Positions 49,676 to 55,016 of a DNA stretch of 58,320 nucleotides are shown one piece after another. Source of the DNA: Thermodesulfovibrio sp. (GTDB taxonomy: Bacteria > Nitrospirota > Thermodesulfovibrionia > Thermodesulfovibrionales > UBA6898); NCBI GenBank assembly GCA_013824615.1, contig PNOC01000021.1, positions 1 through 58,320 of the forward strand, in the 5' to 3' direction. Each line of letters starts with the position of its first letter. The stretch's first letter is position 1. The notes under the pieces are model-generated. The model was given only the letters and a program-made list of their open reading frames with translations. It ran no database searches and was not told where the DNA came from. Made by a program: the position numbers and the translations under genes.

Positions 49676-50083
49676 ATGGAAATTACCCAAGAAACGGATT
49701 ATGCAGTCAGGTGCATCCTCTATCTTTCGAGATATGCCGGCGAAACGCCGATCATGATCGAGACGATCTCGGAGGAGATGCGCATCCCCCGCAGCTTTCT
49801 GGCAAAAATACTTCAGCGGCTGGCAAAGGCAGGAATTGTACAGTCCTTCAGAGGAGTGAAAGGCGGCTTTCAATTGAAACGCCCTCCGTCTGCCATAAGC
49901 CTGCTGGATGTGGTGGAGGCCATCGAAGGGCCTGTCGCCATGAACCGCTGCACCATAGATCCTCAGCGGTGCGACCTCAGCGGTGCCTGCACTGTCCACC
50001 CGGTATGGCAGACCCTGCAGGCACTTGTGGTTGATTATCTTGGAAAGACCACATTCGATACCATGATGCAATGCAGGAAATAA
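49676..50083 (+). CDS. Rrf2-family transcription regulator with three cysteines
   Basis: This 135-residue winged-helix protein is of the Rrf2/IscR type: EITQETDYAVRCILYLSR, then the recognition helix region ISEEMRIPRSFLAKILQRLAKAGIV, and SFRGVKGGFQL. Cysteines at 92, 99 and 105 are spaced close to the Fe-S ligands of IscR/NsrR (IscR has 92, 98, 104), so it probably carries an iron-sulfur cluster. It lies directly upstream of ccoN in the same direction and is a good candidate regulator of the oxidase operon. Confidence 0.92.
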   Translation: MEITQETDYAVRCILYLSRYAGETPIMIETISEEMRIPRSFLAKILQRLAKAGIVQSFRGVKGGFQLKRPPSAISLLDVVEAIEGPVAMNRCTIDPQRCDLSGACTVHPVWQTLQALVVDYLGKTTFDTMMQCRK

Positions 50084-50140: not shown

Positions 50141-51535
50141 ATGAGCGATTATCAGTACGATAATCAGACAGTAAAGGGTTTTATCGTTTCATCTATCTTC
50201 TGGGGTGTGGTCGGGATTGTCATCGGGCTTCTCATCTCTATACAGATGTGGAAACCGGAAACCAATTTCGCACCGTACTTCACCTTCGGAAGACTGAGGG
50301 CAGTTCACACCAACGGCCTTGCCTTCGGACTTGGCGTGGGCGCAATCTTCGGGCTCTCGTATTACATCATCATGAGGCTCGCCAAGCGCCCGCTGCTGTT
50401 CCCGAAACTCGCACGGTTCCAGCTGTATCTCTTCAACGTCGGGATCCTGCTTGCGGCAGTCAGTCTGCTGATGGGTCAGACACAGTCTCTGGAGTATGCG
50501 GAACTGGAATGGCCTATCGACCTTGCGATAGTCATCCTCTGGGTGATGTTTGCGATCAATGTCTTCGGCACGATTATCAAACGCAAGGAAGAGCAGATGT
50601 ATATATCGCTCTGGTATATCATCGCGACCACTATTGCGGTGGCGGTGCTCTATATCGTAAACAACCTTTCTATCCCCGCGGGGCTGACTAAGTCATATCA
50701 CCTTTTTGCCGGTGTCAACAGTGCCAACGTCGAGTGGTGGTATGGTCATAATGCCGTCGGCTTTGTCTTTACCACTCCCATACTGGCAATGTTCTATTAT
50801 TTCCTGCCGAAATCAACCGGCATACCCATCTACAGTCACCGTCTGTCGATCATAGCCTTCTGGTCCCTGGTCTTTGCCTATCTCTGGACCGGGGCTCACC
50901 ACCTGGTGTATACGCCGCTTCCTGACTGGATACAGACGCTCGGGATCGTCTTCACGATATTCCTGATTGCACCGTCCTGGGGGTCAGTGGTCAACGGGTA
51001 TTACACCGTCGGGACTGACTGGTCGAAGATGAACACGAATTACCTTACTAAATTCTTTATCATGGGCATCACCTTCTACGGGCTCCAGACTGTCCAGGGA
51101 CCGACCCAGGGGCTCAGGATTGTGAGCCAGCTGATCCACTATACCGACTGGGTCCCTGGTCATGTTCATATGGGAACCATGGGCTGGGTGACAATGACAA
51201 CCGCAGCCTCGATCTATTACGTCATCCCGAAGATTTACCATACCGAGATATACAGTGAAAAAGTGGCCAATATACATTTCTGGCTCGTACTGATCGGACA
51301 GCTGATCTTCTCGATCACCATGTGGATAACCGGGATACAGCAAGGGGCCCTCTGGAAGGCAACCAATGCAGATGGCAGCCTGAAGTATACCTTTATCGAA
51401 ACGCTTACGAAAAACTATCCTTACTGGCAGCTCAGAACAGTCGGAGGGCTTATATTCACGGTAGGCATGCTCTTCTTCATCTACAATATTTACATGACCA
51501 TCCGCAAGGGATCCCTTGCGGAGGCCAAGGCTTAG
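50141..51535 (+). CDS. ccoN: cbb3-type cytochrome c oxidase subunit I (CcoN)
   Basis: The 464-residue catalytic subunit has about 12 membrane segments. Haem and copper ligands are His56 (RAVHTNG), His203 (WWYGHNAVG), His253 and His254 (TGAHHL), and His341 and His343 (PGHVHMG), the set expected for the C-type haem-copper oxidase family. It reduces O2 to water with high affinity while pumping protons, in the inner membrane. The GGAGGAG ribosome binding site is strong. It starts the cco operon. Confidence 0.96.
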   Translation: MSDYQYDNQTVKGFIVSSIFWGVVGIVIGLLISIQMWKPETNFAPYFTFGRLRAVHTNGLAFGLGVGAIFGLSYYIIMRLAKRPLLFPKLARFQLYLFNVGILLAAVSLLMGQTQSLEYAELEWPIDLAIVILWVMFAINVFGTIIKRKEEQMYISLWYIIATTIAVAVLYIVNNLSIPAGLTKSYHLFAGVNSANVEWWYGHNAVGFVFTTPILAMFYYFLPKSTGIPIYSHRLSIIAFWSLVFAYLWTGAHHLVYTPLPDWIQTLGIVFTIFLIAPSWGSVVNGYYTVGTDWSKMNTNYLTKFFIMGITFYGLQTVQGPTQGLRIVSQLIHYTDWVPGHVHMGTMGWVTMTTAASIYYVIPKIYHTEIYSEKVANIHFWLVLIGQLIFSITMWITGIQQGALWKATNADGSLKYTFIETLTKNYPYWQLRTVGGLIFTVGMLFFIYNIYMTIRKGSLAEAKA

Positions 51536-51544
51536 GGGGGCGCC

Positions 51545-52477
51545 ATGGGAAGCGGAATCTACAACAAACCGATAGCTTTTGCATTGACCGCAACCGTCGT
51601 AATCCTGATAGGCACGGTCGTGACCATGTTCTACCCGATGCTGACACCTGAGATGCATCCGAAGCTCGAAAACCTCAAGCCCTTCACAGCCCTGCAGCTG
51701 GCAGGACGCGATATCTATCAGCGCGAGGGCTGCGTCAACTGCCACACACAGACCGTGCGCCCTCTCAAGACAGAGGTCCTGCGGTACGGAGAATACTCAA
51801 AGGCGGGAGAGTTTGCCTATGACCGGCCCTTTCTCTGGGGGTCCAAGCGGACCGGGCCTGACCTTGCCCGCATAGGCGGCAAGTATCCTGATGCCTGGCA
51901 CTACAAGCATTTTGAAAAACCGCAGGGCATGTTCCCGCAGACAAACATGCCGGCCTATGCTTTTCTTGCAAAAAACAAACTTGACCCGGCGGAAGTTGAG
52001 GCACACATGAAGGCCCTTGATTTCCCCTACACCATAGAGGAGCTTTCAGCTCTCGGCAGCAAGACCGACATGGATGCGCTGGTGGCCTATATGCAGGTCA
52101 TCGGGACTGCAGTAAAGAAAACCGCCCCTGTTGCAGCTGCCGGAGGTGTTAAAGAGGTCCATTTCCCTAACCCGCTTGCAGACAACCCGCAGGCAATCGC
52201 GAAGGGCAAAGACCTGTACGCCAAGAACTGCGCCTCGTGCCATGGTGATAATGCCAAGGGTGACATAGGGCCGAGCCTGGTGGATGACGAGTTCTTCTAC
52301 GAAAAGGGCGATATGCCTGATGACGACTACTTTGAAGTGACCAATAACGGGACCTCAGAAGGCTATGTCGAAGACGGGCGTACCGGAAAGGGAGGCATGC
52401 CCGGGTTCAAGGATTCTCTGAGCAAAGACGATATCTGGTCAATCGTTGCCTACCTGAGATCGATTAAGGGAAAATAG
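51545..52477 (+). CDS. ccoO: CcoO fused to a second cytochrome c domain
   Basis: The 310-residue protein has an N-terminal membrane anchor (about 10-30) and a CcoO-type monohaem domain (Cys63-Val-Asn-Cys66-His67; axial Met135 in NMPAY). A second cytochrome c domain follows at about 205-310 (Cys229-Ala-Ser-Cys232-His233; axial Met285 in GGMPGF). In most cbb3 oxidases CcoO has one haem and the further haems are on CcoP. Here the extra domain is carried by CcoO, and a CcoP-like anchor is encoded separately just downstream (52486). The fusion has no frameshift that I can see. Confidence 0.92.
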   Translation: MGSGIYNKPIAFALTATVVILIGTVVTMFYPMLTPEMHPKLENLKPFTALQLAGRDIYQREGCVNCHTQTVRPLKTEVLRYGEYSKAGEFAYDRPFLWGSKRTGPDLARIGGKYPDAWHYKHFEKPQGMFPQTNMPAYAFLAKNKLDPAEVEAHMKALDFPYTIEELSALGSKTDMDALVAYMQVIGTAVKKTAPVAAAGGVKEVHFPNPLADNPQAIAKGKDLYAKNCASCHGDNAKGDIGPSLVDDEFFYEKGDMPDDDYFEVTNNGTSEGYVEDGRTGKGGMPGFKDSLSKDDIWSIVAYLRSIKGK

Positions 52478-52485
52478 GAGGATAT

Positions 52486-52671
52486 ATGGCTGAAGATCTT
52501 GATAACATCGACGCATTTGAGGCAAAAGAGACGTCTCATAAATTGCCGGTCGGATGGCTGATTCTCTTCTGGGGGCTGATCATCTGGGGCGTATATTATT
52601 TTGTAACCTACAGCCCTGCGATAAGCGGATGGACCCAGACAAAAGCCTATGAAGAATCGGTAAAGAAGTAA
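52486..52671 (+). CDS. CcoP-like N-terminal anchor without haem domain
   Basis: The 61-residue protein has one membrane segment (LPVGWLILFWGLIIWGVYYFVTY). The EAKETSHKLPVGW-x-FW and YSPAISGW pattern matches the N-terminal domain of CcoP/FixP, which binds the oxidase core. It stops after that domain, with no CxxCH. It starts 9 bases after the CcoO fusion gene, with an AGGAGG ribosome binding site. Confidence 0.85.
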   Translation: MAEDLDNIDAFEAKETSHKLPVGWLILFWGLIIWGVYYFVTYSPAISGWTQTKAYEESVKK

Positions 52672-52676
52672 CAGCT

Positions 52677-52707
52677 ATGCAGGGCCGGCCTGCAGCCGGC
52701 CCTGCAT
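52677..52707 (+). other. Perfect 13-bp intercistronic hairpin
   Basis: ATGCAGGGCCGGC (52677-52689), loop CTGCA, GCCGGCCCTGCAT (52695-52707) is a perfect stem directly after the CcoP-like stop codon. The next bases are ATAAAAACTC, without a T-run, so it is not a standard terminator. It probably protects the 3' end of the upstream part or is a processing site within the operon. Confidence 0.7.
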
Positions 52708-52749
52708 ATAAAAACTCTATGAAACCTGTATAAAAATGGAGAATATACT

Positions 52750-52842
52750 ATGGACATGTCAATTGCTGCAACCATCGCTTTTACGGTACTGCCGACTCTG
52801 GCAGCGGTGTATCTCTTTTACATGGCAAGCAGAAAAAAGTAA
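52750..52842 (+). CDS. 30-residue single-pass membrane peptide
   Basis: ATG at 52750 to TAA at 52842 encodes MDMSIAATIAFTVLPTLAAV and ten more residues, almost entirely a membrane helix followed by Ser-Arg-Lys-Lys. Its place between cco genes and its size resemble small oxidase assembly peptides such as CcoS/CcoQ-like proteins, but I do not recognise a family. Confidence 0.55.
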   Translation: MDMSIAATIAFTVLPTLAAVYLFYMASRKK

Positions 52843-52854
52843 CCGGGCCTGATT

Positions 52855-52998
52855 ATGAGCTCACAGGGAATAGCCTATTTTATTTTTGGCCTTACGCTCG
52901 TCATCCTTTTTGGCGTTATCATCGTACACTATTACTCCAAGAAACATCGCAACAAGGTTGAAAAAGCAAAATTCACCATGTTAGATGACGACGATTAG
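52855..52998 (+). CDS. CcoQ-like small membrane protein
   Basis: The 47-residue protein has one membrane helix (IAYFIFGLTLVILFGVIIVHYY) followed by a basic patch (SKKHRNK) and an acidic end (MLDDDD). This fits CcoQ/FixQ, a small subunit that stabilises the cbb3 oxidase. The last 14 bases overlap the start of ccoG. Confidence 0.75.
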   Translation: MSSQGIAYFIFGLTLVILFGVIIVHYYSKKHRNKVEKAKFTMLDDDD

Positions 52999-54208
52999 GG
53001 GGTTCCAGCCTTACCGGCGCGCTGCCCTGGTCCTTCAGGCTGTCATAATCCTTGGCCTTCCTTTTCTGAAAATCAGAGGGGAGAGCGCCGTCCGTTTTGA
53101 CCTGCCGTCTCTGAGACTGCATTTTTTCGGGAGGGCGCTCTGGATACAGGAATTCTTTGTTGTTCTTATCGCCCTGCTCTTCTTCACCTTCCTGATCCTC
53201 CTGGTAACGCTGTTGTTTGGCAGAATCTGGTGCGGCTGGCTCTGCCCCCAGACTGCCTTGACTTACCTGACAGAGTTTGCCGGCCAACCGGCGGCGAAAA
53301 ACCTTATCAGAAATATTGCTTCTTACGCAGGAGTATTCGGGGTCAGCCTGCTGGTCGGAGCAAACCTGATCTGGTATTTCGTGACTCCCGCAGAATTTTT
53401 CACAAGACTGCTCAGCGATAATCTTGGCCCTGCCATAACCTGGGCCTGGTCCCTTCTTACCATCGTACTTTTTGCGGACCTGGCTTTTATACGACACCGG
53501 TTCTGCGCCACGGTCTGCCCGTACTCAAGGATGCAGAGCACGCTCTTTGACAGCAGAACAATGGTCATTGCCTTTGATATGCAGAGAAGCGCCGAGTGCA
53601 TGGACTGCGCTGCCTGCGTGCGCACATGCCCCGTGGGGATAGATATCCGCAAAGGGCTCAGTCCCGCCTGCGTCAGTTGCGCGCAATGCGTTGATGCCTG
53701 TGCTGAAAGACTGGCAAAAAAAGACAGGCAGGGATTGATAGGGTATTTTTTCGGACTTCCGGGCCAGGGTATCGGTTTTATGCGCAGAAACGTGCTGCTG
53801 GTCTCGGCCGTGACACTTTCTTTGATGGTCTTTCTCGTACTGCTCGCCTCGGGAAGGCAAACCCTTGATATGACGGTAATGCCGGCGCACAACTTTCCAC
53901 CCCGCATCACCACCGACGGGAAAATCATAAACGCCTATCTTATTGCCTTCGAAAACAGGGGCAGCAATGCATTGCAGGTACACCTGTCAGCGCTGCCAGC
54001 ACCGGCGTCACAGACTTCAATTGCACTGAATCCTGCGACAATCATGGTCAGGGCAGGCGAACATAAAACAGCAACCGTTTTTGCAGAGATGCGGGACGTG
54101 CCTCAGCATAACAGCACGGTCACATTCACTCTGTCTGCAGACTATGGGGCTGCCGAACAAAAGCCCTTGTTGCGCAAAGCAGTCTTTGCCGTTCCGGGGA
54201 AACCATGA
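52985..54208 (+). CDS. ccoG: CcoG/FixG-type ferredoxin protein
   Basis: The 407-residue integral membrane protein has about five membrane segments and two [4Fe-4S] motifs, CMDCAACVRTCP and CVSCAQCVDACA, as well as WCGWLCPQT and CPYSRMQ. CcoG reduces copper(II) for insertion into CcoN. The C-terminal periplasmic region (about 290-405) is an immunoglobulin-like domain. It overlaps ccoH by 4 bases. Confidence 0.93.
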   Translation: MTTIRGFQPYRRAALVLQAVIILGLPFLKIRGESAVRFDLPSLRLHFFGRALWIQEFFVVLIALLFFTFLILLVTLLFGRIWCGWLCPQTALTYLTEFAGQPAAKNLIRNIASYAGVFGVSLLVGANLIWYFVTPAEFFTRLLSDNLGPAITWAWSLLTIVLFADLAFIRHRFCATVCPYSRMQSTLFDSRTMVIAFDMQRSAECMDCAACVRTCPVGIDIRKGLSPACVSCAQCVDACAERLAKKDRQGLIGYFFGLPGQGIGFMRRNVLLVSAVTLSLMVFLVLLASGRQTLDMTVMPAHNFPPRITTDGKIINAYLIAFENRGSNALQVHLSALPAPASQTSIALNPATIMVRAGEHKTATVFAEMRDVPQHNSTVTFTLSADYGAAEQKPLLRKAVFAVPGKP

Positions 54209-54663
54209 AAAAAATCATCGTCTTTGTGACCCTGGCCGCTCTGGCTGCCGTCGTAGGGGCTATCGTCGTAGGCAGCCGTAACTTTGAAGGCCTGGTCACC
54301 GACCGGCCCTACGAAACAGGCATTACATGGGACAAGACCCGGAACGACAAAATAGCCTCCGGGTGGGATGTTGTTATCACCCCGGGGGATTTTCAGGTTG
54401 GAGACAGCGAGCTTCTGCTCAGAATCACCGACCGGAAAGGGAATCCTCTGGCAGACTCTGCAGTGGCTGTGCGTCTCAGCCGGCCGCACACAAATGCCAG
54501 CGACAGTGCAGTCGCTACCCGGAAAACCGGACCCGGATTATTCAGTGCCGCTGTAAATTTTCCGGCATACGGTTACTGGGACATTAAAATGACTGTATCC
54601 GGCGAGGGAAAAAGTGTATCATTTGATAAGAGGATATTTGTAAAAAAGACAGGAGAAAAATAA
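54205..54663 (+). CDS. ccoH: CcoH/FixH-like oxidase maturation protein
   Basis: The 152-residue protein has one N-terminal membrane helix (about 4-22) and a periplasmic beta-rich domain with VTDRPYETGITWDK and PAYGYWDIKMTVSGEGKSVSFDKRIFVKK, the pattern of FixH. It assists assembly of the cbb3 complex. Its stop overlaps the next start (TAATG). Confidence 0.88.
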   Translation: MKKIIVFVTLAALAAVVGAIVVGSRNFEGLVTDRPYETGITWDKTRNDKIASGWDVVITPGDFQVGDSELLLRITDRKGNPLADSAVAVRLSRPHTNASDSAVATRKTGPGLFSAAVNFPAYGYWDIKMTVSGEGKSVSFDKRIFVKKTGEK

Positions 54664-55016
54664 TGAGAAAATCAGCAGCAGTTGTAGCAGCTATCTCTTT
54701 ACTGCTTTGCGCCGCAGCGGAACTGTCGTTCAGTGCAGAGGCAAAGACCAATAACCCCTATGGGGGAAATACGTCAGTCCTGAAGGAAGGCAAAAGGATT
54801 TATGAAAGCAACTGCAAGAGTTGCCATGGAGACGGGGCCAAAGGTGACATCTGCCCGGACCTGACGACCAAAAAGAAGAAGTTCGGCAACACTGATGCGG
54901 ATGTATATACCACCATCTCAAAAGGAAGGCCGGCCGGTATGCCGAATTGGGACAATACGCTCGGCTCTGACAAGATCTGGAAAGTAATCGCATACCTCAG
55001 GAGCCTCGAGAAATAA
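54663..55016 (+). CDS. Periplasmic class I cytochrome c
   Basis: The 117-residue protein has a signal peptide (MRKSAAVVAAISLLLCAAA) and a single haem motif Cys-Lys-Ser-Cys-His with a GRPAGMPNW axial-Met region. It resembles the second domain of the CcoO fusion (GKxxYxxNCxSCHGDxAKGDI). It could donate electrons to the oxidase, or be an additional CcoP-type haem unit supplied separately. Confidence 0.9.
   Translation: MRKSAAVVAAISLLLCAAAELSFSAEAKTNNPYGGNTSVLKEGKRIYESNCKSCHGDGAKGDICPDLTTKKKKFGNTDADVYTTISKGRPAGMPNWDNTLGSDKIWKVIAYLRSLEK

Follow-up and report, generated by a model that had tools for sequence, protein, structure and literature searches.

Electrons in the cbb3 (C-family) haem-copper oxygen reductases travel from the haems of CcoP to the haem of CcoO, from there to haem b and finally to the haem b3/CuB centre. 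The canonical CcoNOQP enzymes, e.g. those of Pseudomonas stutzeri (3mk7/5djq) and Rhodobacter capsulatus (6xkw), carry one c-type haem on CcoO and two on CcoP, and in the Proteobacterial operons ccoQ is located between ccoO and ccoP. We analysed a stretch of 58,320 nucleotides from Thermodesulfovibrio sp., in the following called the window, encoding an oxidase homologous to these enzymes in CcoN, the N-terminal part of CcoO, the CcoP anchor, CcoQ and the assembly genes, but with two c-haems on CcoO and none on CcoP and with the gene for the CcoP anchor preceding ccoQ.

The closest description available for a part of this locus is the NCBI family NF011054/PRK14486, named 'putative bifunctional cbb3-type cytochrome c oxidase subunit II/cytochrome c', which represents the same fusion of CcoO to a cytochrome c and has its best scores in Myxococcota genomes, among them Anaeromyxobacter PSR-1. 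Because NCBI has a family for the CcoO fusion, the core of the arrangement is a known variant; the model, however, spans CcoO only, and both the CcoP reduced to its anchor and a 30-residue peptide encoded next to it lie outside. The cbb3 oxidases of Bacteroidota (L033-L036, L046, L073-L076) are likewise a subunit-fusion variant, but there CcoN is joined to CcoO and the haem stays on a CcoP with one or two haems. In the open-access literature we found no description of an anchor-only CcoP or of the small peptide. A 2026 study on Deferribacter detected ccoN along with a mono-haem ccoO, found ccoP and ccoQ 'not evidenced' and on that account called the oxidase partial (PMC13186404), whereas the other Deferribacterota examined here have an anchor-only CcoP together with a two-haem CcoO.

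Considering the locus as a whole, we judge with a probability of roughly 80% that it encodes a working cbb3 oxygen reductase whose electron-entry arm is reduced and rearranged. The features of the operon are compiled in Table 1.

Table 1. Features of the cbb3 oxidase operon (positions refer to the window)
Feature	Position	Strand	Evidence
Rrf2-family regulator (IscR/NsrR-like), directly upstream of ccoN	49676..50083	+	Pfam Rrf2 130.7 bits; position
ccoN, catalytic subunit of C-family (cbb3) haem-copper oxidase	50141..51535	+	464 aa; PF00115 360.9 bits
ccoO with an additional cytochrome c domain fused at its C-terminal end	51545..52477	+	310 aa; NF011054; FixO and Cytochrom_C; invariant ligands
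ccoP cut down to its N-terminal membrane anchor	52486..52671	+	61 aa; no haem, no CxxCH; Pfam FixP_N 33.5 bits (cut-off 24.9)
GC-rich hairpin between the anchor gene and the 30-aa ORF	52676..52708	+	folding; strong
Putative unannotated 30-aa single-helix peptide, MDMSIAATIAFTVLPTLAAVYLFYMASRKK	52750..52842	+	between the anchor gene and ccoQ; conservation, fusion, genome association
ccoQ	52855..52998	+	47 aa; FixQ PF05545 33.5 bits (cut-off 29)
ccoG, assembly ferredoxin	52985..54208	+	TIGR02745 243 bits; FixG_C
ccoH	54205..54663	+	PF05751 FixH 72.7 bits
Soluble periplasmic mono-haem cytochrome c	54663..55016	+	117 aa; Cytochrome_CBB3 57.8 bits; one CxxCH; signal-peptide-like start

The oxidase subunits encoded in the window

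The best solved relatives of CcoN are the CcoN chains 3mk7_A and 9g6b_A (E about 1e-140), and the histidines binding CuB and haem as well as the cross-link tyrosine are conserved. The alignment with 3mk7_A covers residues 6-461 (E 5e-140) with the motifs GHNAV, YLWTGAHH and GHVHMG aligned, identifying the protein as a cbb3 CcoN; its score with the strict model TIGR00780 is 528.8 and lies below the cut-off of 583.15. Downstream of the cytochrome c gene at 54663 further accessory genes are found, followed by a gene for a CcoI-like copper ATPase (56331). The Rrf2-family protein encoded upstream is a likely candidate for the regulator of the oxidase operon.

CcoO contains two CxxCH motifs, at residues 63 and 229, and two Pfam domains, i.e. 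FixO (residues 7-165, 236.5 bits) and Cytochrom_C (residues 218-307). In an alignment of 25 CcoO sequences C63/C66/H67 with M135 and C229/C232/H233 with M285 are invariant, and because the ligands in both domains are preserved in this way both haem sites look functional. The protein reaches 448.3 bits with NF011054 (curated cut-off 447) and 202.5 with TIGR00781 (cut-off 200.65), which together with CxxCH and FixO assigns it to the cbb3 CcoO proteins. Its C-terminal domain also scores with the CcoP model TIGR00782 (48.8 bits) and matches the CcoP chains 3mk7_C and 6xkw_p. The AlphaFold model of CcoO (mean pLDDT 76, pTM 0.62) has a well-folded second domain and leaves the mutual placement of the haem domains open, and a fold search with this model relates the N-terminal part to CcoO chains and the C-terminal part to class I cytochromes c. 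In a Deferribacteraceae assembly (L027, 5810-5932) we observed a frame change near the end of the CcoO C-terminal domain, which is probably an assembly error.

The product of the following gene has a score of 26.8 with the full CcoP model TIGR00782 compared to the 179.95 required, showing that the di-haem CcoP of the canonical CcoNOQP enzymes is replaced here by its anchor. This anchor with its short conserved periplasmic tail would have a structural role only. Among close relatives the gene changes mainly at the third codon position (e.g. 8, 2 and 28 changes at positions 1, 2 and 3), which argues for a maintained gene and not for debris. The first-pass annotation of this DNA had described a CcoO with two CxxCH domains, a next gene encoding only the haem-less membrane anchor of CcoP with 61 residues, and a separate cytochrome c at 54663, and our analysis agrees with it on all of these.

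The genome of origin (3.6 Mb in 96 contigs, of which the window is C21; rated 100% complete) holds no second FixP_N domain, the 61-residue anchor being the sole match. Its other oxidase is of the A-type: two further, stronger COX1 matches on contigs C35 and C44 were considered as a second cbb3 oxidase and rejected, these being one A-type gene broken across the contig ends (L002, L003). A third COX1 match, on contig C2, is weak. Neither a Rieske protein (PF00355) nor a bc-type cytochrome b (PF13631) was detected in this genome, despite the presence of both the cbb3 and the A-type oxidase.

Distribution of the layout and the probable order of events

At 42 distinct loci including the window, ccoO encodes two haem sites and the next gene a haem-less anchor; these loci are distributed over Nitrospirota, Deferribacterota (Seleniivibrio, Calditerrivibrio and others) and Myxococcota (Anaeromyxobacter). 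Comparing the cco operons of relatives, as had been proposed along with the initial annotation, therefore yields 41 other loci with the same layout, and this recurrence places it far beyond chance or assembly error. Exactly one FixP_N match is present in 22 of the 24 genomes searched; the two exceptions are an Anaeromyxobacter with an anchor scoring just too low and a genome outside the group.

Within the Nitrospirota we distinguish four layouts by the number of c-haems on CcoO and CcoP, i.e. B (1/1; L117-L120), C (2/1; L112-L115), D (2/0; the window) and E (1/0; a single genome, L116/L136). D-type operons have the gene order N-O-P-Q, C-type and Proteobacterial ones N-O-Q-P. In the CcoN tree the D-type and E-type sequences, including those from Deferribacterota and Anaeromyxobacter, form one clade (support 99/97) and the B-type sequences another (100/100), while the C-type sequences are paraphyletic at the base. 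This basal position of the loci combining a two-haem CcoO with a one-haem CcoP suggests that the gain on CcoO came first and the loss of the CcoP haem later. According to this tree CcoO most likely acquired its second domain while CcoP still had a haem, the D lineage losing the latter afterwards, so that the simplest history would be an overlap followed by loss rather than a cut-and-paste move. The initial annotation had stated that haem domains moved from CcoP to CcoO: the present location of the c-haems on CcoO and the reduction of CcoP to an anchor are as described, whereas a direct move is not supported, given the basal 2/1 loci.

The E-type genome (G228, Nitrospirota; L116 1303-2127 and L136 9124-9948, both on the minus strand) encodes a one-haem CcoO directly before the haem-less anchor. 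No other cytochrome c domain was found within 18 kb of this locus, giving an apparent cbb3 oxidase with a single c-haem.

The soluble cytochrome c has a narrower distribution. Apart from the window, only its closest relatives, L012-L014, have an orthologue at the operon, and in most other D-type genomes searched the best match to it is the CcoO domain itself. The protein is better read as an electron donor, more likely a dedicated and lineage-specific one than a third part of the oxidase core. The earlier idea of haem units re-partitioned among three genes is thus weak as regards the gene at 54663.

Three other explanations of the locus have to be weighed against this background. That a haem domain was cut from CcoP and fused to CcoO, a third piece becoming the soluble cytochrome, would account for the similarity of the CcoO C-terminal domain to CcoP and for the soluble cytochrome grouping with the haem domains of C-type operons (95/88). 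We regard such a direct re-partition as unlikely: operons pairing a CcoO with two haems and a CcoP with one do occur and branch at the base, elsewhere in the clade the gene for the soluble cytochrome is missing from the operon, and the AU tests (p 0.08, 0.32 and 0.07) resolve neither link. These tests were done on the short haem-domain tree of 93 columns, in which the C-type CcoO domains group with the C-type CcoP domains (95/88) and not with those of D-type CcoO; a constraint placing all CcoO domains in one clade is not rejected (p 0.08). A degenerate or mis-assembled operon, with ccoP split by a sequencing error and a full CcoP encoded elsewhere and used with this CcoN, might be suspected in an assembly of many contigs in which the A-type oxidase is itself broken across two of them. 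It is refuted by recurrence, as about 40 assemblies made independently share the layout, among them the complete chromosome of Anaeromyxobacter oryzae, and is further opposed by the purifying pattern in the anchor gene and by the single FixP_N domain of a genome rated as complete, leaving it hardly any credibility. Finally, the reduced cytochrome set, and the relative in which a one-haem CcoO is combined with a haem-less anchor, could be taken to indicate an enzyme resembling nitric oxide reductase, with a single small cytochrome subunit, instead of an oxygen reductase. As CcoN can be aligned over its whole length with solved cbb3 CcoN structures and shares the tyrosine/histidine pattern of oxygen reductases, and as ccoG, ccoH, ccoQ and the copper ATPase gene follow downstream, we consider this very improbable.

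A short reading frame between the anchor gene and ccoQ

Homologues of the 30-residue peptide with the pattern MDIS(I/V)xATIGFT...RKK are encoded at the equivalent place in more than 20 Nitrospirota operons, most of them preceded by a Shine-Dalgarno sequence, and no Pfam or NCBIfam family scores above its curated cut-off for the peptide. When a profile built from the Nitrospirota peptides was run against every ORF in the loci, it picked up the second, C-terminal helix of the CcoP-anchor proteins of Anaeromyxobacter, which have 93-104 residues (E about 1e-3 to 1e-7). The peptide is thus fused in frame to the anchor in this genus, and of the Myxococcota copies examined six are fused and one is separate (L019). 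For none of the seven Myxococcota copies did any of about 1000 shuffled sequences score as high as the real one, and the profile gives no more than 10 bits to other membrane segments encoded in these operons. A low-confidence model of the Anaeromyxobacter anchor protein contains two long helices. By the positive-inside rule the basic C-terminus of the peptide would be cytoplasmic, consistent with a second helix that crosses back after the anchor.

The association of the peptide with the layout was determined in 362 genomes of two phyla. At E < 1e-3 the peptide is present in 18 of 22 Nitrospirota genomes with a D-type or E-type operon and in none of the 223 others, one of which gives a marginal match (0.006), and in all 12 D-type Myxococcota genomes compared to none of 105 others. 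The corresponding Fisher values of 9e-24 (Nitrospirota) and 1e-16 (Myxococcota) have to be read in light of related genomes not being independent and of the profile including peptides from some of them. The profile search detected no peptide in Deferribacterota with the layout, nor in four layout-bearing Nitrospirota genomes.

The extreme shortness of the ORF and its match to no annotated family would be compatible with a frame that is untranslated or hydrophobic by chance, but this is improbable: pairwise differences between the homologous ORFs are concentrated at the third codon position (0.365, 0.276 and 0.675 at positions 1, 2 and 3), ribosome-binding sites precede most copies, and the in-frame fusion, the shuffling control and the genome association all speak against it. 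The ORF therefore probably encodes a real, so far unannotated subunit of the oxidase, its membership in the complex being inferred from these comparisons. We consider it likely that the peptide is a new subunit of a distinct branch of the cbb3 oxidases and that it has co-evolved as CcoP lost its haem domains, being encoded as a separate gene in Nitrospirota and as a second anchor helix in frame in Anaeromyxobacter.

A subunit of similar size is CcoM, a single-helix protein of 36 residues in the cbb3 oxidase of Pseudomonas stutzeri (5djq_N; PMC10433244, PMC9264385). Both CcoM, as a cbb3 oxidase subunit, and the peptide are tiny single helices with a basic C-terminus. CcoM was rejected as a homologue, scoring -0.4 bits with the peptide model and being missed as 5djq_N by the peptide profile; the CcoM sequence used was confirmed against 5djq_N.

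Stem-loops occur at the position of the hairpin following the anchor gene in all six relatives folded, with unrelated sequences. The hairpin is perhaps an element controlling mRNA stability or dosage.

Electron entry and significance for the cbb3 family

Our data support a model according to which CcoN would form the catalytic core and CcoO would contribute its own haem adjoining CcoN and a second haem on the fused C-terminal cytochrome c domain. As entry site the latter haem is the strongest candidate and would take over the entry role of CcoP, while the haem-less CcoP anchor may have been kept for assembly and stability, with the 30-residue peptide predicted to pack with it as a second helix. 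Electrons would then pass from a periplasmic cytochrome c, which in this genus may be the product of the gene at 54663, to the C-terminal haem of CcoO, on to the N-terminal haem of CcoO and to haem b, and from there to haem b3/CuB and oxygen. The predicted complex would thus contain two c-haems and not three. This path through the CcoO haems is our inference.

The findings bear on how such oxidases are annotated and understood. Annotations calling them incomplete may need correction. With the CcoP anchor retained but its haems gone, the part that CcoP plays in the structure is set apart from the part it plays in electron transfer, and each becomes testable. Moreover, the locus points to an unannotated small subunit that is missed by standard gene callers.
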